Part shown: in pieces, positions 8,921 to 29,058 of the stretch
Numbering within the stretch: position 1 is the first letter of the stretch
Layout: each line of letters opens with the position of its first letter
DNA from: a virus
Length of the DNA stretch: 33,008 bases
Reading direction: 5' to 3' (one strand)
IMG/VR virus record: IMGVR_UViG_3300025168_000333
Span: 1 to 33,008 of that record
The notes under the pieces: generated by a model
What the model saw: only the letters and a program-made list of their open reading frames with translations
Told to the model about the DNA's origin: nothing
Database searches by the model: none
Made by a program: the position numbers and the translations under genes

Positions 8921-10801
8921 TTATTTCTTTTTCTGCTTCATTAATACTTGCACCCATTCGTGACGGCAATGAAAAGACTTGCCCCACCATCCACCGCCTC
9001 GCTGCCAAACGTTCCTATTTTCAAATACGCCTATTTGCTCAATTTCTGTGAGACTCCAAGTTTTGCCTGACTTTGGGCTGTCAACTTCAGCAGACATTTT
9101 GACCATGCCCCGACAAAATTCTCTTGTGGTGTCAATTATTGGCTGCATTTCGTCACGGGTTGCATAAACGTAACGAATGACAAATTCTTCTTCAATTGGC
9201 GGTACTTCTTTTATTAGCCCTTTGCCTTTGTCGGTTACTTCTACTATGCGCTGCGTAGCGTCCTCAATTGTGTCAATTGATATAACTATAGCACCCGCGC
9301 TAGAAAGTCGCTGTATGCCACTCATAAGACGCTCCAAGTCAATTCCTAATGCTTTTGCAATATCTAGGAAAGGCGTACTAGGTTCTTTTAGTAAAATTTG
9401 CAGAATAGCCGTGTCAATTGGGTCTACGTCAGCAAACCAATACTTCAAAGAAAATTCATCTTGCTTGGCTTTGTTCAATACACCTGTGTAGTCAACTGAC
9501 CGCTTTCGGCTAGATACAAATTCGTATTCATCTGAACCCGTATTCTTAAAGTGTTGTATTATTCGGTCTTCATCTTCTGCATTGCAACAAACTTCACTTG
9601 ATGCTTTTAGTTCGGTTTGTACTTCTTCTATAGGTTCTAGTCCTATCTTCTCACGTATTTCGTTTTGAGTCATAACGCTTATGACCGTAGCTTCCGAAAA
9701 CTGTACTGAAATGGGCTCGGTTTCTTTAATATATAACCTTTCCTCAAAACCTTGCAAAGACGCTAATTGGTTAAACACTCGCTCAATAATTTGCTGCCTG
9801 TTATTTACGTAGGTATTTTGGAACAATTCAAATGAATCTATTAGCTGTGAACGCGATGTGAAAAGACCTTCTTCCTTTATACCAAACAGCGCAGGGTCAA
9901 CCACTTGGTGACCCGCGTAAAGTTCTTTTTGTACGGTACGGTTTAATATCTCAAAACGCTTATCAAAGTCGTTGCCGTTTAGCTGCTGTATTTCAGCCCC
10001 CCTGTCGCGTGAATCTGAAAAGTTTAGGACTATGCTGTTGGCGTTGTCTGTGTTGGTAAACTTATCTTTGATTTGCCGTTCAATATCTTCTTGCTCTTCA
10101 GCGGTCGGCTCACCATTGTAAAAATTTATAAGAGTTCCACCCATAAACCCGTTTTTAATTGAGTTTAGATGAAAGTTGGCTATTTCTACGTCAAGTTCTA
10201 TGTAACTAACTGACCCCATGTATGTAGGTAAAGGGTAGTATTTGCAGTCAGGGTGATACACCTTGACGTATAGCAGTTGCTTCCCTGTGGGGTTTTTCCA
10301 ATCAAAGGCGTCTATTTTCTCAATTTCGGGGTTGTGCTTCTTCCAATCTTCAGAATAGTAAAAACATGACCCGTCTTCATTGCTTCTATAGCGCGCAAAG
10401 TCGGCATGATATACAGCCGCGATTTTGTCGTTTAATTGGTTGTAGACAATTTCCAACGCGAAGCCGTTATATAGTTCCATATCTAAAGCAACCTTCTCTA
10501 GAATGTCATCCATATTTTCATAGGCGTTAGGGTGCTTCACAAACTGCTCTATTTCAGCTAATCTAGCGGTGTTTAAACCCTCATCTTTCACGCCCCACCC
10601 CTTGCCTACAACGTAGTCTTTTTTTGAATTGATAATAGCGTGATGTTTCGCGCTTCTTCGGTACAAATCAAGTAGGTATTCAGGGTAGCGATTTTTCCAT
10701 TCGCCTTCAGCCCCGAATAATATCCAATCTTTGCCCCTTTGCTCCCTAAAATCGGGGACTTTTTGAGCAGCAAAATTTAGTATTGAGATGTTATTCTCCA
10801 T
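8921..10801 (-). CDS. Portal protein with C-terminal winged-helix-like and CRHEW domains
   Basis: A 626-residue protein. Residues about 1-400 are portal-like: WILFGAEGEWKNRYPEYLLD, SKKDYVVGKGWGVK, a beta-rich wing, and a crown-type helix with VNNRQQIIERVFNQLASLQG. This part forms the dodecameric ring through which DNA is packaged. The protein then continues beyond a plain portal. Roughly residues 445-530 (DTAILQILLKEPSTPFLDIA onward) look like a winged helix-turn-helix, and the last 90 contain REFCRGM, WSLTEIEQIG, RGGGWWG and CRHEWVQV, a pattern I associate with minor head or head-morphogenesis domains. It lies about 13.6 kb downstream of the terminase rather than next to it. It overlaps the previous gene by 11 bases. 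Confidence 0.8.
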   Translation of the reverse strand: MENNISILNFAAQKVPDFREQRGKDWILFGAEGEWKNRYPEYLLDLYRRSAKHHAIINSKKDYVVGKGWGVKDEGLNTARLAEIEQFVKHPNAYENMDDILEKVALDMELYNGFALEIVYNQLNDKIAAVYHADFARYRSNEDGSCFYYSEDWKKHNPEIEKIDAFDWKNPTGKQLLYVKVYHPDCKYYPLPTYMGSVSYIELDVEIANFHLNSIKNGFMGGTLINFYNGEPTAEEQEDIERQIKDKFTNTDNANSIVLNFSDSRDRGAEIQQLNGNDFDKRFEILNRTVQKELYAGHQVVDPALFGIKEEGLFTSRSQLIDSFELFQNTYVNNRQQIIERVFNQLASLQGFEERLYIKETEPISVQFSEATVISVMTQNEIREKIGLEPIEEVQTELKASSEVCCNAEDEDRIIQHFKNTGSDEYEFVSSRKRSVDYTGVLNKAKQDEFSLKYWFADVDPIDTAILQILLKEPSTPFLDIAKALGIDLERLMSGIQRLSSAGAIVISIDTIEDATQRIVEVTDKGKGLIKEVPPIEEEFVIRYVYATRDEMQPIIDTTREFCRGMVKMSAEVDSPKSGKTWSLTEIEQIGVFENRNVWQRGGGWWGKSFHCRHEWVQVLMKQKKK

Positions 10802-23151: not shown

Positions 23152-23739
23152 CTAAGCAAAGTTATCCAACAGGCAGAAATTTACCTCAGGTTTTCGCGCT
23201 TGGTCGTCACAGGTGTCTATGGGTCTACCGTTAGCTTCAGCCTCAGTTTTTATGACCTCCACGTTTTTCAGATTGTGTTGGTGCAATAGGTGGTCATGCC
23301 TCCCGCCCCTGCTAGCTGTGAGAATTAAGTTAGTCGGTATTTCGTCAAGCCTGTTCACCCAATAGGTTAGGCTCTTAGTGTACGCCCAAAACTCAACTTC
23401 AGGATTATCCCTGCATATCTGAAGCCATGTATCAAAATACGCCTGAGAATAAAAGTCACCGCTCATGTGTATTCGCACCGCTTTAGCTTTAGGAGGCAAT
23501 ACGGGCACACCTCCTTGCCTCAAATAGTCAAAGTTAGTCCACCTGTGCCCCCTGACCGCAGGGAAGCGTTCAGCGCTTGCTGAATAGCATCTATAGGCTT
23601 TGCTTTTATTGTTAAACTTTCCCGTATGCCTGTCAACTTTAACTAGGCACTCTGAAGCAAAAGGACAGGTGAAGCCGCTTGGTAGATTCCATTCGTAAAC
23701 TACACCCTCATAGTATTTCGTTTTTCTTATGAATTTCAT
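23152..23739 (-). CDS. Gp88-like phage protein
   Basis: Start ATG at 23739, giving 195 residues; a TTG at 23757 would fall inside the terminator. It resembles the mycobacteriophage gene-product-88 family: GFTCPFASECLVKVD (cysteines near residues 22 and 28), AYRCYSASAERFP, then RIHMSGDFYSQAYFDTWLQI and EFWAYTKSLTYWV, and a late cysteine pair in IDTCDDQARKPEVNFCLLDN. The conserved cysteines suggest a metal or Fe-S site, but the function is unknown. It lies between a terminator and the tail chaperone, an odd place for a non-structural gene. Confidence 0.72.
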   Translation of the reverse strand: MKFIRKTKYYEGVVYEWNLPSGFTCPFASECLVKVDRHTGKFNNKSKAYRCYSASAERFPAVRGHRWTNFDYLRQGGVPVLPPKAKAVRIHMSGDFYSQAYFDTWLQICRDNPEVEFWAYTKSLTYWVNRLDEIPTNLILTASRGGRHDHLLHQHNLKNVEVIKTEAEANGRPIDTCDDQARKPEVNFCLLDNFA

Positions 23740-23755
23740 GTGTACAAAATAAGCC

Positions 23756-23784
23756 AAAAAAAAAGCCCCCTAAATGGAGGCCTT
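23756..23784 (-). terminator. Rho-independent terminator
   Basis: Minus strand: AAG, a bulged G, CCTCC, an ATTTA loop and GGGGGCTT, followed by a tract of T (seven to nine). It lies 23 bases after the 79-residue gene and closes the P4 cassette just before the Gp88-like gene. Confidence 0.8.
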
Positions 23785-24380: not shown

Positions 24381-25565
24381 TTATCGTATCACATATTTCC
24401 CTGAATTGGTGTTTAGTTTTTCCATTGCTACATAGCGCAGGGCGTCCATTGCGTGATTGTTTGCATCTTCAGGAACGTTGGTTGCTTGGTTGGTTTTGAA
24501 GTCGCGCTTCCAAGCATACGACTTGAGTTCTCGTATCACGTTTACTGAATCGCGGTGTACCATTATTTGAACGCTCTTTAGTTTGTCAATACCCGAACGT
24601 ATAGAATCAGCCCCCTTCTTCACGCCCCTTATCCTGAAGCCCGCCCGTCTTATTTCTTCAATTGACTTTGGTTCTGCGCTGTCTGCTATTATTTCATCTG
24701 AACCCTTTAGACCACACCTTCGGGCAATGTCTGTATTCATAAGGTCGGTTTCATATATTAATTCCCTGACCCATAGCTTACCGTCATTGAACAGAACTTC
24801 TACCAATGCAGTCGGGTCGTGCGTAAACCCGAAATCAAGACCCCATGCACGCCACTTGAAACCTGTAGGCCAATCGCTTGTTTCTTTCCAATTGGTTATG
24901 ACCGCCCCTTCCCTACGGCTTCGCTTCCCAAGACCGTACACTTTCCATTTGAAATCATCCGCAGTACCCTTTGCGATGTTGTCGGGTGTAGGCTTATACG
25001 ATAATATCTTCTTTCTGATGTGCGGTTCTAGAAAAGTATTGTGTAGCATAGTCGAATGTATATAGACCACGTCAGGACGCTTTAAAACGTTGTCATATAT
25101 CCAATGCTCGTCAGTTGACGGGTTGTAGTCAAGAATCCATTTGCCTTTGCACCGTTGCTCAAGTTGGTCAAAATCGTCTTTACTTGTTTCAATGGCTTCA
25201 TTTAGCCAAAAGAAATCAGTTTCGATACCGTGCAACTTCTGTGAATCATCTAGCCCGTAGAACGCATAAGAAGACCCGTGATGCCTATATATTAATTCGG
25301 TTTTATTGAAGTCATCGGGATTCCATTGTTCAAGTGAGGTAAATACCTTTTTGAACGTATCTAGCACGGTTGGCTTTATCCATGTCCTACGCAGTCGGGC
25401 AATGGCAAACTGTTTAGGGCTTTGCGCTCCCATAACGTACAGGGCTTGACATATTGACCAAGTTTTGCTAGACCGTGAGCCTCCCTCAAGGACAACCCCT
25501 CTTATGTTTGGGTCATTAAGTGCAGACCATAATTCATCAAATACTTCAGTACCATTAATCCTCAT
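24381..25565 (-). CDS. terL: Large terminase subunit
   Basis: A 394-residue DNA-packaging motor with both domains. ATPase: Walker A GGSRSSKT (28-35), Walker B FFWLNEA (118-124), with the catalytic Glu in NEA, and a DYNPS coupling-type motif (146-150). RNase H-like nuclease: WGLDFGFTHDPTAL (Asp244), EIIADSAEPKSI (Asp295) and NNHAMDALRY (Asp374), three acids for metal binding. It overlaps the small terminase by 11 bases. The family looks like the PBSX/SPP1-type group, which tends to go with headful packaging, though that cannot be read with certainty. The portal is not adjacent, unlike in most phages. Confidence 0.93.
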   Translation of the reverse strand: MRINGTEVFDELWSALNDPNIRGVVLEGGSRSSKTWSICQALYVMGAQSPKQFAIARLRRTWIKPTVLDTFKKVFTSLEQWNPDDFNKTELIYRHHGSSYAFYGLDDSQKLHGIETDFFWLNEAIETSKDDFDQLEQRCKGKWILDYNPSTDEHWIYDNVLKRPDVVYIHSTMLHNTFLEPHIRKKILSYKPTPDNIAKGTADDFKWKVYGLGKRSRREGAVITNWKETSDWPTGFKWRAWGLDFGFTHDPTALVEVLFNDGKLWVRELIYETDLMNTDIARRCGLKGSDEIIADSAEPKSIEEIRRAGFRIRGVKKGADSIRSGIDKLKSVQIMVHRDSVNVIRELKSYAWKRDFKTNQATNVPEDANNHAMDALRYVAMEKLNTNSGKYVIR

Positions 25566-25956
25566 GGTCTTTGCGGTGAATTACAATTTCAATTTCACGG
25601 GGTGCGCCACCGTTTACGGTTTGGTCAATCTCTTCCTTCGGCTTACCGTACACCCTATCAAATAGAACGTCCAATATATGTATTGAACCACGCCTGAAAT
25701 CGCGCTGTGCCTTGTTCGCTATTAGTGCAATCCAAAAAGGTAGTTCATCGTTCTTGGCTAGTTCAACTAATTCGTTACGGGTCTTACCTAGAATGTTCTT
25801 AATTATATCTTGAACCTGACCTTTGGATAGCTTCAAGTTATGTTCCTCTAGGAAGTGTGCCTTTAGCACCGTTTCAATGTTTTTCGGTCTGCCTTTCGGG
25901 TTGCCGCTCACGCCTTTTTTGAATTGGTGTGGCTCTATGTTCTCAGGTTTTGGCAT
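25555..25956 (-). CDS. terS: Probable small terminase subunit (DUF5681-like)
   Basis: A 133-residue protein. The N-terminus has FKKGVSGNPKGRPK (residues 12-25), the mark of DUF5681 proteins, which often stand before the large terminase and are taken as small terminases or their DNA-binding partners. A helical core follows (ILGKTRNELVELAKNDELPF, then WIALIANKAQRDFRRGSIHI). It overlaps the large terminase and starts 16 bases after the IbrB-type gene. Function as packaging-site recognition subunit is inferred from position. Confidence 0.72.
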   Translation of the reverse strand: MPKPENIEPHQFKKGVSGNPKGRPKNIETVLKAHFLEEHNLKLSKGQVQDIIKNILGKTRNELVELAKNDELPFWIALIANKAQRDFRRGSIHILDVLFDRVYGKPKEEIDQTVNGGAPREIEIVIHRKDHED

Positions 25957-25972: not shown

Positions 25973-26488
25973 TTATTTAGGTTTCCAAGCCTTACTAAAT
26001 TCTTTGTCTTTGAATACTTCGCTCTTAGGTATTCCCGCTTTAAATAGCAGCCTCGTCACTTCTTCTTTTTCCATGCCTAACCGCTTCATTATCTCGCTAC
26101 CCTCCAAACCGTTTTCAACCATCTCGGTAACTATGTTGCTCATCTCTAGAACTCCATGCGTACCCCTTGCCCTGTTGTGACGTATGGTTGCCATTTGCTG
26201 TTGGCTTTTATCTTTTGGGGTCACCATTACAGTAGGAACTTTACCGTCTGTCAGGCTGTGTATTTCCTTATGACCTGAAACCGTCCACCTGTGGAAACCG
26301 TCAACTATTGTATTGTCGGGGTTTATGACAATTGGTTGCGTCCATCCGTCTTCCATAATGCTAATTTTTAATAGCTTTAATTCAGCGGGCGCGACCTTAT
26401 TAGGGTTGTAACCGTTTGGTTTTAGTTCGTCCCTGTGAAGCCACTTAATTGAGTTTAACGGCTGTGCTTTTAGTTTATCTTTTTCCAA
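25973..26488 (-). CDS. ParB/sulfiredoxin-fold protein, IbrB-type
   Basis: A 171-residue protein with a ParB N-terminal (ParB/Srx) domain: NPNKVAPAELKLLKISIMED (28-47), GWTQPIVINPDNT, then IVDGFHRWTVSG (61-72) with the GxHR phosphate-binding motif, followed by a helical DNA-binding-like part with an HTH-type segment (IMKRLGMEKEEVTRLLFKAG). It overlaps the PAPS-reductase-like gene by 14 bases, and a stop precedes its TTG start, the only candidate. The pair IbrA (PAPS reductase-like) and IbrB (ParB-like) is known from E. coli prophages as regulators of Eib surface proteins, but its biochemistry is unsettled. Here it is followed by the terminase genes. Confidence 0.78.
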   Translation of the reverse strand: MEKDKLKAQPLNSIKWLHRDELKPNGYNPNKVAPAELKLLKISIMEDGWTQPIVINPDNTIVDGFHRWTVSGHKEIHSLTDGKVPTVMVTPKDKSQQQMATIRHNRARGTHGVLEMSNIVTEMVENGLEGSEIMKRLGMEKEEVTRLLFKAGIPKSEVFKDKEFSKAWKPK

Positions 26489-27683
26489 AACGTTTCATTT
26501 TATATTGTTCCGAACCAAATTTCATAATCGCTTCATCAAATGATTTAATGCCTAATTTCTGTTGTTTATTCACCGCAGCGTTTTCTAAGGTTGGTGCTGT
26601 CCTACCTTTAAAGTCACCTTTGATAATTAGCTTACATAAGAACGCCCAACCCGTACCCGTTAGCGGGTGTACGTCATCGTCAGGTATTGGGTCTTTTGTC
26701 TTTTGAAAGTGTCTTCGTATAATGTCATTGATGTTTTTCTTGACCGTATTTGAGTTTACTGTGTCATAGCTTTCAAGTAGCATTTCAGCCCACTTCTTAT
26801 AAGTCGCATCTTCAGGCTTTTCAATTTTACCATAACCATAAATATCAGTATTTGCATACCGCCACGCAGTCGCAACCCCGTCAACCCTGTTTAGCATCTT
26901 GTGCCACATTTCAGGAAAACATTCAGCGTACATCCATAAGCCTCTAAGCGGTTCTTCACCAAAAGGCGGACAAACCCTTTGCGCTAAGAAGCGATTGTGC
27001 AACCCTGTTTGGTTCATTACGTCATAGGTCTTGTTGTAGTCCCAATCAAATTTAGTTACTGCTAGCCATACGTCTTCACTTGACCAATCATATATAGGGT
27101 GAGCGTGTGCAACGTGACCTTCCCTAGCAATGTAATTGTCATTCTTCTTAACAGCTACAGCCTTCATTCTTCTAAATGACTCCTGTGTTCTAACGCCTGT
27201 CATGATAACCGTAGTACCTACAGAACGGTCAGGCAATAAGGAACTAAATTCTTGAAAGGACATACCCTTCTTAAACTTCTTGTGTTCTGTTATTAGGCTA
27301 TCACTTTCAGGTAGTTCGCGCACCCATAAGTCACGTTTTTCTTTGTCCCAACAATACCAAAACGGTTCTTCATTTGAACAGGCGTTTCTGTGTTTAAATT
27401 CAAGACAATACCAATTAAATTGAACTCCTTTTTGATTAGCAACCCGATAAGCATATTCAATAGTTGGGGGGTGTATTGCTTCTTCATCAAAAAAGTTCAC
27501 AATGACTTCTTTGTTTAATTCGGCTGCAACTTCAATAGTCAAATTCAATACTACCGTACTGTCCTTTCCTGCAGAAAAGTTAACCACTACATTATCAAAA
27601 GACTCGTATAGGTATTTGATTCTATTTTTAGATTCAATATATACGTTCTCTTCTATGTATTCTTTCTGCCTTGCCCTACTCAT
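26475..27683 (-). CDS. PAPS-reductase-like (IbrA/DUF3440-type) ATP pyrophosphatase
   Basis: A 402-residue protein of the PAPS reductase/ATP sulfurylase-like family. The PP-loop is SAGKDST (37-43); next come NFFDEEAIHPPTIEYAYRVA, then GTTVIMTGVRTQESFRRMKA, and a C-terminal DUF3440-type half with HAHPIYDWSSEDVWLAV and a conserved CPPFGEEPLRGLW stretch. PP-loop enzymes activate a substrate with ATP and often move sulfur. The family resembles IbrA and, more distantly, DndC of DNA phosphorothioation, but no cysteine desulfurase or DndDE partner lies here. It overlaps the cupin gene by ATGA and the ParB-like gene by 14 bases. The family is clear; the substrate is unknown. Confidence 0.85.
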   Translation of the reverse strand: MSRARQKEYIEENVYIESKNRIKYLYESFDNVVVNFSAGKDSTVVLNLTIEVAAELNKEVIVNFFDEEAIHPPTIEYAYRVANQKGVQFNWYCLEFKHRNACSNEEPFWYCWDKEKRDLWVRELPESDSLITEHKKFKKGMSFQEFSSLLPDRSVGTTVIMTGVRTQESFRRMKAVAVKKNDNYIAREGHVAHAHPIYDWSSEDVWLAVTKFDWDYNKTYDVMNQTGLHNRFLAQRVCPPFGEEPLRGLWMYAECFPEMWHKMLNRVDGVATAWRYANTDIYGYGKIEKPEDATYKKWAEMLLESYDTVNSNTVKKNINDIIRRHFQKTKDPIPDDDVHPLTGTGWAFLCKLIIKGDFKGRTAPTLENAAVNKQQKLGIKSFDEAIMKFGSEQYKMKRFGKR

Positions 27684-28486
27684 TTTGTTCTTATTGCCTC
27701 GTCATGCTTTGCGGACACACCGTCTATCATAGTTCGGTTAATCATTGGGTGCTCAGTATCAGTAGCCCCAAAATCACTATCAGGATGAAACGCAATTACA
27801 TCCATTGAACTTTCGTATGTGTTGAAACTGTGTTGACCCGCAGGGTGCATCTTACCGTCTTCACCTTTTACAAACCCTGTTTCTTCATTGTATTCTTTTA
27901 TTACGAATATCATACCCGCCTTCAAGTCTAACTTACCAAAAGGCGTCACACATTCTCCATGACCTTTTGCAACTATGCCTATCCTATGTGATGGGTGCGT
28001 GTGTTGCGTTTGTGTTATGTTGCTAGGAAAGTGCAAATGATTTAAGCACGGGTCACCTAATTTTACAGGCGGTATAAGTAGGCTATCTGTGCAGCCGTCT
28101 ATATACTTTAAACGACCCTTTTCTTCAATAGAACCTCCAAACAAATTGTAGGCTTTGTAGTTTGTTTCAGGGTACGTTCCTGAATTGTGATATACTTCTA
28201 TTAGAATAAACTTAGAACCGCTAGTTTGGCAAGTTGTTAGTTCGCCTGTGCAACTAAAGAACATTCCTTCAGTTAGCGTTTGAGGTGCTTGGCCTGTATT
28301 GTTTAGAATTATCACGCCTTTATACACATAGCCGTAGTAACTACAGTCTTTAGATGTTCTAGGTAATTCACCGTCAATTACATTGTAGTATTTAATCGGG
28401 CTTAATTTGTGCGCTCTGTCATCAAATATCAATCCGTTATGTGAATTGTCAAAAGATATGAAGGCTGCGTTTTCTTGAATTTTCAT
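27680..28486 (-). CDS. Bicupin-like protein
   Basis: A 268-residue protein that reads as two tandem cupin barrels. The first (about 35-115) has YGYVYKGVIILNNTGQAPQT and EGMFFSCTGELTTC. The second (about 145-240) has QTQHTHPSHRIGIVAKGHGE with His162, His164 and His167 in the place of the metal ligands, then LKAGMIFVIKEYNEETGF and AGQHSFNTYESS with a likely fourth ligand His219. Cupins may be oxygenases, isomerases or sugar-binding regulators. It overlaps its neighbours on both sides by ATGA, between the ParB-like and PAPS-reductase-like genes, so joint function is likely; the reaction is not known. Confidence 0.75.
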   Translation of the reverse strand: MKIQENAAFISFDNSHNGLIFDDRAHKLSPIKYYNVIDGELPRTSKDCSYYGYVYKGVIILNNTGQAPQTLTEGMFFSCTGELTTCQTSGSKFILIEVYHNSGTYPETNYKAYNLFGGSIEEKGRLKYIDGCTDSLLIPPVKLGDPCLNHLHFPSNITQTQHTHPSHRIGIVAKGHGECVTPFGKLDLKAGMIFVIKEYNEETGFVKGEDGKMHPAGQHSFNTYESSMDVIAFHPDSDFGATDTEHPMINRTMIDGVSAKHDEAIRTK

Positions 28487-29058
28487 TTGTCTTTGTTATA
28501 TACTCTAAGTATTTCCATTAATGAGTCCTCAAGTTTTTCAAACAGGAAGTTCTTTTTAATTTGATTTAAAGCCTCCACAAGTTTCAACTTGTTTTCGTGT
28601 AGCATGACCATCTCAAAGACACTATAACCATCGTCAGACGCTTTAGGACTGCTTCCTGAGCCTTGCTCTTCATCTTCTGTAACGTTAAACATATCATCTT
28701 CACCTGTCCAAACTTCAAGACCCCAACTTGTCAACTCAGTTGCATCCCATGTATTAGCTAGGTCATCCCATTCCCACTCACCAAAGTTGACGTTGTCTTT
28801 AATTACAAATTCATTCTGTTTTTCCTGTGACCAATCGACTACTTCAACAGGGGCTTCTTTCCACCCTGCTTCAGTCATTGCCCTTAGTCGCATATTGCCA
28901 CCAAGAACAACCATATCTTTGTTGACTACAATAGGCCGAACCTTTGCCATTTCAGGAAAGTCTTTAAGCGACTTGACTAACTTCTCAAACCTTCGGTCTT
29001 TTATGACTCTAGGGTTGTTTGGGTTGGGCTTTAGTTTAGCTATTAGTGTACTCTTCAT
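28483..29058 (-). CDS. ParB-like N-terminal domain protein, no methylase
   Basis: A 191-residue protein with a ParB/Srx-type domain at the front: LKPNPNNPRVIKDRRFEKLV (9-28), LKDFPEMAKVRPIVVNKDMV, then VLGGNMRLRAM (51-61) carrying the GGNxR motif. In many phages this domain is joined to a DNA methyltransferase; here it stands alone with an acidic linker (TGEDDMFNVTEDEEQGSGSS) and a helical end. It heads the ParB-cupin-PAPS reductase-ParB run and overlaps the small gene upstream by 23 bases. Possible roles are a DNA-binding adaptor, a nuclease or an NTP-using enzyme. Confidence 0.75.
   Translation of the reverse strand: MKSTLIAKLKPNPNNPRVIKDRRFEKLVKSLKDFPEMAKVRPIVVNKDMVVLGGNMRLRAMTEAGWKEAPVEVVDWSQEKQNEFVIKDNVNFGEWEWDDLANTWDATELTSWGLEVWTGEDDMFNVTEDEEQGSGSSPKASDDGYSVFEMVMLHENKLKLVEALNQIKKNFLFEKLEDSLMEILRVYNKDK

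Follow-up and report, generated by a model that had tools for sequence, protein, structure and literature searches.

A recurrent bicupin-IbrA-IbrB cassette upstream of phage terminase genes as a probable exchangeable DNA hypermodification module

INTRODUCTION

The virus sequence IMGVR_UViG_3300025168_000333, a linear IMG/VR record of 33,008 bp which was analysed over its full length and is termed the window below, raises the question of why a set of tightly packed genes lies immediately upstream of the terminase genes and what its products do. The genes encode a ParB/Srx-like protein (ParB1), a two-barrel cupin (bicupin), an IbrA-type PP-loop enzyme resembling 3'-phosphoadenosine-5'-phosphosulfate (PAPS) reductases and a second ParB protein of the IbrB type, and they are followed by the small (TerS) and large (TerL) terminase genes. 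An earlier note, made from the sequence alone, described a four-part set that could modify DNA or a nucleotide before packaging or control host surface genes. It is argued here that bicupin, IbrA and IbrB are quite likely a phage DNA hypermodification module which is swapped in behind ParB1, the latter acting as its adaptor. Far less confidence attaches to the specific chemistry, in which a base would receive an amino-acid-like group.

RESULTS

Recurrence and modularity of the cassette

When the cupin and IbrA were used as queries, 94 distinct viral loci were gathered, and a cupin gene is present in 84. The order ParB1-cupin-IbrA-IbrB recurs in 84 distinct viral loci and the block is therefore not a chance arrangement. 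Co-occurrence was counted only in loci with enough flanking sequence for the neighbour to be seen. IbrA lies within 1.5 kb of the cupin in 83/83 such loci, the cupin stands beside a close IbrA in 83/83, IbrB follows downstream in 83/83 and, in 71 of 76, TerL is no more than 3 kb away. The possibility raised in the earlier note that the cupin would be absent from other IbrA/IbrB neighbourhoods is thus removed, the cupin being present in 83 of the 83 testable loci. The four-part set itself is real and recurrent, but ParB-PAPS reductase-ParB beside a terminase is already present in GenBank phages and the set is larger and more modular than had been supposed. Genes gp5-gp10 of Arthrobacter phage Shrooms read ParB-PAPS reductase-ParB-methyltransferase-TerS-TerL, with an S-adenosylmethionine-dependent methyltransferase (phrog_11826) and no cupin, while phage vB_RanS_PJN03 reads ParB-ParB-PAPS reductase-TerS-TerL. 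Beside these two phages, it is only the bicupin that makes the set new. The bicupin gave no tblastn match at E 1 in GenBank phages and no PHROG match, hence cultured relatives carrying it are lacking.

The general order is ParB1-(SDR)-cupin-(PP-loop2)-IbrA-(p165 or PD-DEXK)-IbrB-TerS-TerL, where brackets mark optional genes. These encode a short-chain dehydrogenase (SDR), which stands next to a cupin of a shorter kind, a further PP-loop enzyme (PP-loop2), and either a 165-aa protein (p165) or a PD-(D/E)XK protein. The SDR goes with the shorter cupin subtype both in phages of marine origin and in a prophage-like locus of Endozoicomonas (Table 1), hinting at an extra redox step. The conserved 165-aa protein is present in the two loci of Table 1 and in about 20 further loci; L391, a locus with no cupin, encodes a longer relative upstream of IbrA. 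Its predicted model is confident (predicted local distance difference test, pLDDT, 90); searches of Pfam, PHROG and phage proteins gave no match, and Foldseek gave none of significance in the PDB.

Across 45 loci the median identity of the cassette proteins was 0.48-0.74 and that of TerL was 0.25. Where TerL fell below 25% identity the cassette proteins were still 0.47-0.63 identical. Given that this identity is high despite the divergent TerL, the cassette moves between phages with different terminases and is kept by them. The cassette stays constant while the types of TerL and TerS beside it change freely. The Mantel co-divergence was 0.61 for IbrA-IbrB and -0.02 for ParB1-cupin. The genes of the cassette therefore reassort, and simple co-divergence provides no evidence for a unit. 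Cassette genes were also found in five bacterial genome loci from Bacteroidota and Proteobacteria, namely L076, where the sequence ends after IbrA, L077 (Chitinophagaceae) and L095, both with phage packaging genes nearby, L083, and L135 (Endozoicomonas).

Other occupants of the slot between ParB1 and the terminase genes

The outcome of a search using the terminase only was analysed where 2.5 kb or more of upstream sequence was available, in 50 loci, of which 33 had a ParB1 homologue and 17 did not. In phages with a related terminase and no cassette, the same ParB1 was found before TerS-TerL and the slot was filled by DNA-modification enzymes. Such an enzyme was present in 24 of the 33 ParB1 loci and IbrA in 4 more, compared with 1 of the 17 loci lacking ParB1 (Fisher p ~1e-5). 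Pfam assigned TAGT (11), Tet_JBP (10), N6_N4 methylase (8, as ParB1 fusions), Mom (4), ADDT (amino acid:DNA transferase, 3), aGPT-Pplase3 (2) and kinase (2) domains among 51 slot proteins, and a control scan of the ParB1-negative loci found none of the hypermodification families. The cassette excludes these enzymes, as models for TET, TAGT, Mom, ADDT, kinases and methyltransferases gave 0 hits in the neighbourhood of 123 cassette loci.

A census anchored on ParB1 gave 71 distinct loci comprising 33 ParB1-methyltransferase fusions, 11 TET/TAGT, 8 Mom, 2 cupin, 2 IbrAB, 12 other and 3 truncated loci, these proportions being biased because the query included the ParB1s of Mom and TET modules; the terminase-anchored result is free of this bias. 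The 'other' loci include a C5 methylase and, in two loci, the 7-deazaguanine genes QueD, QueE and FolE. In these two (L444 and L496, Table 1) ParB1 is followed by a putative DpdA-like protein, recognised by eye, together with the QueD, QueE and FolE homologues. A protein of about 355 aa with an ABC-ATPase part also occupies the ParB1-TerS slot, in L437 and L361 (Table 1) and in L476, L488 and L505; the L361 member is joined to a GNAT acetyltransferase domain (Pfam). It is a candidate for another DNA-acylating module. Serratia phage eta had been considered as a modified-guanine example and was dropped since the paper describing it reports no modified base (PMC3918226).

The observed/expected ratio of palindromic 6-mers was 0.795 (0.773-0.813) for the cassette loci and 0.701 (0.633-0.769) for loci without ParB1, the value for TET/TAGT/Mom loci, 0.718 (0.665-0.777), overlapping the latter and the hosts differing between the groups.

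A common ParB1 domain with module-specific tails

In a ParB1 tree the proteins from cupin loci interleave with those from Mom, TET and methyltransferase loci, with at least nine well-supported changes of the cupin label. Models were trained on half of the cupin ParB1s and the other half was held out. The model of the N-terminal domain scored 182 bits for the held-out cupin ParB1s, 180 for TET/TAGT, 176 for methyltransferase and 175 for Mom ParB1s. The tail model gave a median of 94 bits for held-out cupin tails, all above 15, and about 0 for the tails of every other module. The ParB1 N-terminus matches the MTase_II N-terminus (4.4e-9) and the protein is nearest to the ParB-methyltransferases. 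ParB1 is read as an adaptor in which a common domain for DNA and nucleoside triphosphate (NTP) is joined to an exchangeable tail, which may dock the enzymes.

The bicupin

The AlphaFold2 model of the cupin is a confident two-barrel fold (mean pLDDT 93.8). The nearest solved folds covering both barrels are those of (S)-ureidoglycine aminohydrolase/YlbA, with Z 18.2-19.3 over ~210 residues at only ~10-15% identity (1sfn, Z 19.3; 4e2q, Z 18.5), followed by BacB, AerE, dioxygenases and KduI, also at ~10-15% identity. Cupins of the ureidoglycine aminohydrolase-like fold act on small nitrogen compounds. The resemblance of the predicted model does not, however, give the substrate or function of the bicupin. 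An alignment of 35 phage relatives showed His162, His164, Arg168, His219, His234 and His246 to be invariant, all in or near the second barrel; the protein is probably a metal enzyme. A PDB sequence search gave no placement for the bicupin, for IbrA or for the DpdA-like protein of L496.

In cellular genomes, relatives of the bicupin (L076-L155) lie in other clusters, with NeuB and sulfotransferase genes in Maricaulis, in an AsnB-like synthetase cluster in Lewinella, with CysE and threonine aldolase in cyanobacteria, and with non-ribosomal peptide synthetases (NRPS) elsewhere. These clusters hint at amino-acid-like substrates.

IbrA, IbrB and a second cupin

PP-loop enzymes adenylate a substrate, and the ligands of ParB/Srx domains are NTP and DNA. 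IbrA and IbrB clearly belong to the known IbrA/IbrB pairs (phrog_2302 and phrog_2159), the DUF3440 PP-loop gene overlapping the IbrB-type ParB gene by 14 bases. The possibility that IbrA is a functional PAPS reductase was rejected. Its best CysH-type NCBIfam score was 32.9 bits against a curated cut-off of 154, and the ECG[IL]H catalytic cysteine motif of CysH does not occur in its sequence. The nearest defence proteins in PADLOC were DndC (3.9e-10) and BrxP (1.5e-9). Cys93, Cys238 and Cys255 are nearly invariant within the cupin clade of IbrA; in a set of 13 diverse IbrA proteins none of the cysteines is invariant.

Most known IbrA/IbrB pairs have neither a cupin nor ParB1 and are found in replication or early regions, whereas the cassette always has the bicupin. 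In a large second IbrA clade, IbrA and IbrB stand alone in 79 of 80 loci, and in further cultured phages IbrA-IbrB adjoin SNF2-type helicases. A cupin of another type, that of ectoine synthase (EctC), accompanies IbrB in 37 viral loci (within L307-L344) and in phages Gaia, Nebkiss and XCL1123. In the 37 loci it is fused to IbrB in 14 and separate but adjacent in 23, and nearly always directly follows IbrA. In mycobacteriophages Gaia and Nebkiss it is fused to IbrB (Ectoine_synth 1.3e-32). The Gaia pair, gp103-gp104, a PAPS reductase and an EctC-cupin/ParB fusion, likewise combines a cupin with IbrA and IbrB, but the cupin is of the single-barrel type and the genes are not at the terminase. A profile comparison of the bicupin with the Gaia fusion found no similarity; the two cupins are therefore treated as separate recruits to IbrA/IbrB. 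That a second, unrelated cupin stands beside IbrAB supports a real link between cupins and this pair.

The window and its features

The cassette and terminase genes are all on the minus strand of the window (Table 1). The overlaps between ParB1, cupin, IbrA and IbrB are 4, 4 and 14 bases, IbrB and TerS are separated by 16 bases, and TerS and TerL overlap by 11. The head-to-tail block of the earlier note is therefore borne out by the coordinates. Its names for the four proteins agree with the Pfam and PHROG searches, and the two cupin barrels with the AlphaFold2 model and the fold comparison. The ParB_N matches of ParB1 and IbrB are just below the Pfam cut-off and the PHROG matches of both are strong. 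No ParA was seen among the recurrent cassette genes, only part of the window genes having been scanned. Scanning the window for tRNA genes and Rfam families gave no hit. A GP88-family protein follows TerL directly in the window and lies between IbrB and TerL in L006 and L018. The portal gene is ~14 kb beyond TerL and comes after the tail genes, so that the late genes are in an order unusual among tailed phages.

Table 1. Positions of the features discussed, in the window and in other loci (numbered L). E-values follow the names of the matched families.
Feature	Locus	Position	Strand	Description
ParB1	Window	28483..29058	-	191 aa; ParB_N 8.1e-6; phrog_498 (ParB-DNA methyltransferase) 1.4e-23; ParB/Srx domain at the N-terminus, conserved, with GGNMR motif; C-terminal tail of a type found only in cupin cassettes
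Bicupin, putative metal enzyme	Window	27680..28486	-	268 aa; Cupin_2 1.4e-4
IbrA	Window	26475..27683	-	402 aa; FSAGKDST; PAPS_reduct 3.9e-14; DUF3440 1.2e-13; phrog_2302 2.9e-85
IbrB	Window	25973..26488	-	171 aa; listed start TTG; ParB_N 2.7e-4; phrog_2159 1.5e-65; ParB/Srx domain with DGFHR motif; IRHNRARGTHG motif; C-terminal helix-turn-helix-like region (by eye)
TerS-like DUF5681 protein	Window	25555..25956	-	DUF5681 1.3e-10; downstream of IbrB
TerL	Window	24381..25565	-	Terminase_3 2.1e-17; Terminase_3C 3.3e-17; context defining the slot
GP88-family protein	Window	23152-23757		PF17338
GP88-family protein	L006	7338-7946		PF17338
Portal	Window	8921-10801
SDR	L009	4149-4853		Marine phage
SDR	L020	3529-4233		Marine phage
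SDR	L135	7155-7871		Endozoicomonas
165-aa protein	L028	2775-3272		Between IbrA and IbrB
165-aa protein	L059	7176-7685		Between IbrA and IbrB
ParB1, DpdA-like (by eye), QueD, QueE, FolE	L444	1455-5430
ParB1, DpdA-like (by eye), QueD, QueE, FolE	L496	5507-8668
~355-aa ABC-ATPase protein	L437	1001-2077
~355-aa ABC-ATPase protein	L361	967-2040		Joined to GNAT domain

DISCUSSION

The genes of the cassette occupy the slot of known DNA-decorating enzymes and for this reason probably make a novel DNA modification. The known ParB-linked hypermodification loci (Mom; TET/JBP with TAGT; ADDT/aGPT-Pplase with kinase; 7-deazaguanine; ParB-methyltransferase) have the same ParB1 N-terminal domain and the same position before TerS-TerL, and they too consist of compact overlapping genes which are exchanged among related phages. 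The cassette differs in its catalytic genes, which are bicupin, IbrA and IbrB, and in its ParB1 tail. Of the functions suggested in the earlier note, DNA modification before packaging is favoured by the slot, the exclusivity and the shared ParB1, while control of host surface genes found no support.

Several observations weigh against this interpretation. Five of the 33 ParB1 loci contained none of the modelled enzymes. A thymidylate synthase and a small number of plain DNA methylases occur in the ParB1-negative loci. Modification genes close to TerL are thus not confined to loci with ParB1, and the presence of these methylases means that the contrast is strongest for the hypermodification enzymes. 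To these may be added the bias of the ParB1-anchored census and the frequent location of cupin-less IbrA-IbrB pairs among replication and recombination genes, away from the terminase. We know of no enzyme of the module with an established DNA-modifying activity, and the annotation given to IbrAB of Escherichia coli is that of co-activators for the expression of prophage genes.

The same annotation is carried by several IbrA/IbrB records and the link is repeated in papers (PMC4541368). It would fit a regulatory block in which IbrA and IbrB co-activate phage or host genes and the cupin, which has AraC_binding-type similarity, senses a small molecule, no base being changed. This is unlikely given that DNA-modification enzymes and the module replace one another behind a single ParB1, that the module's pairing with the terminase is constant, and that the bicupin has a full invariant histidine set, an enzyme-type fold and no DNA-binding domain. 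The constant position before TerS-TerL could instead denote a packaging factor, with ParB1 and IbrB as NTP-dependent clamps loading or switching the terminase on concatemers and with IbrA and the cupin making or adjusting a nucleotide ligand, ParB-fold proteins being able to bind diverse NTPs (PMC12704722). Such a role appears quite unlikely when 17 of the 50 loci with related TerL have no ParB1 upstream, the terminase types change freely under a constant cassette, and the other slot occupants are DNA-modifying enzymes rather than packaging proteins. Regulation and packaging are both the weaker because neither explains the exchange with modification enzymes.

DNA would also be altered if IbrA were a DndC-type sulfur enzyme in a process like Dnd/Ssp phosphorothioation. 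DndC (Dnd) and BrxP (BREX type 4) belong, like IbrA, to a PP-loop family of DNA-modifying defence enzymes, and their PADLOC matches and the three nearly invariant cysteines of the cupin clade point in this direction. However, these cysteines are not conserved across the IbrA family, which weakens the case, and known phosphorothioation has no place for a cupin. Neither cysteine desulfurase nor DndD or DndE is among the recurring cassette genes, in agreement with the remark in the earlier note that no Dnd partner is present. Sulfur modification is thus very unlikely. An auxiliary metabolic role unconnected with DNA, be it PAPS reduction or another small-molecule pathway helping the host, is suggested by the database names of the proteins and by the AsnB-type synthetase, NRPS, NeuB or CysE neighbours of the cellular bicupins, and is the most improbable of these explanations. 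It conflicts with the low CysH score and the missing cysteine motif of IbrA and leaves two ParB proteins and the terminase linkage unexplained.

Returning to DNA hypermodification, a sequence of events can be sketched. The N-terminal ParB/Srx domain of ParB1, common to many phage modification modules, probably binds NTP and DNA, and the module-specific tail would dock the catalytic proteins. IbrA would spend ATP adenylating its target, for which a base carbonyl and a small compound with a carboxyl or amide group are the likeliest candidates. IbrB, as a second DNA-binding ParB, would keep IbrA on the DNA. The bicupin may make or tailor the added group, with the SDR or second PP-loop enzyme supplying extra steps in some phages. 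The picture we prefer has an amino-acid-like group put on the base at the expense of IbrA's ATP and tailored by the bicupin. Expression just ahead of the terminase would allow genomes to be decorated before packaging and so shielded from host nucleases. The complete scheme would be a cupin-dependent base hypermodification, possibly the first. In it IbrA would adenylate either the base or a precursor resembling an amino acid, the adduct would be completed by the bicupin, and a ParB adaptor whose tail can be exchanged would connect the module to the general ParB1/terminase slot that many phages use. This scheme is put forward tentatively and we would not yet call it probable.

Phage DNA-modification modules are an established kind of system; what appears to be new is the present member, together with its enzymes and the rule of the tails. 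A search of literature that includes few subscription papers found no description of the cassette, and surveys of ParB folds and of phosphorothioation mention no cupin in such a setting. If the interpretation is correct, the orphan IbrA/IbrB pair, a 'PAPS reductase' with a 'partition protein', becomes a testable DNA-modification hypothesis, and inspection of the genes between ParB1 and TerS-TerL becomes a rule for discovering more modules. If one ParB domain can carry different tails, the swapping of modification chemistries among phages would be explained. New DNA modifications are of interest for the escape of phages from restriction, for artefacts in virome sequencing and as a source of enzyme tools.

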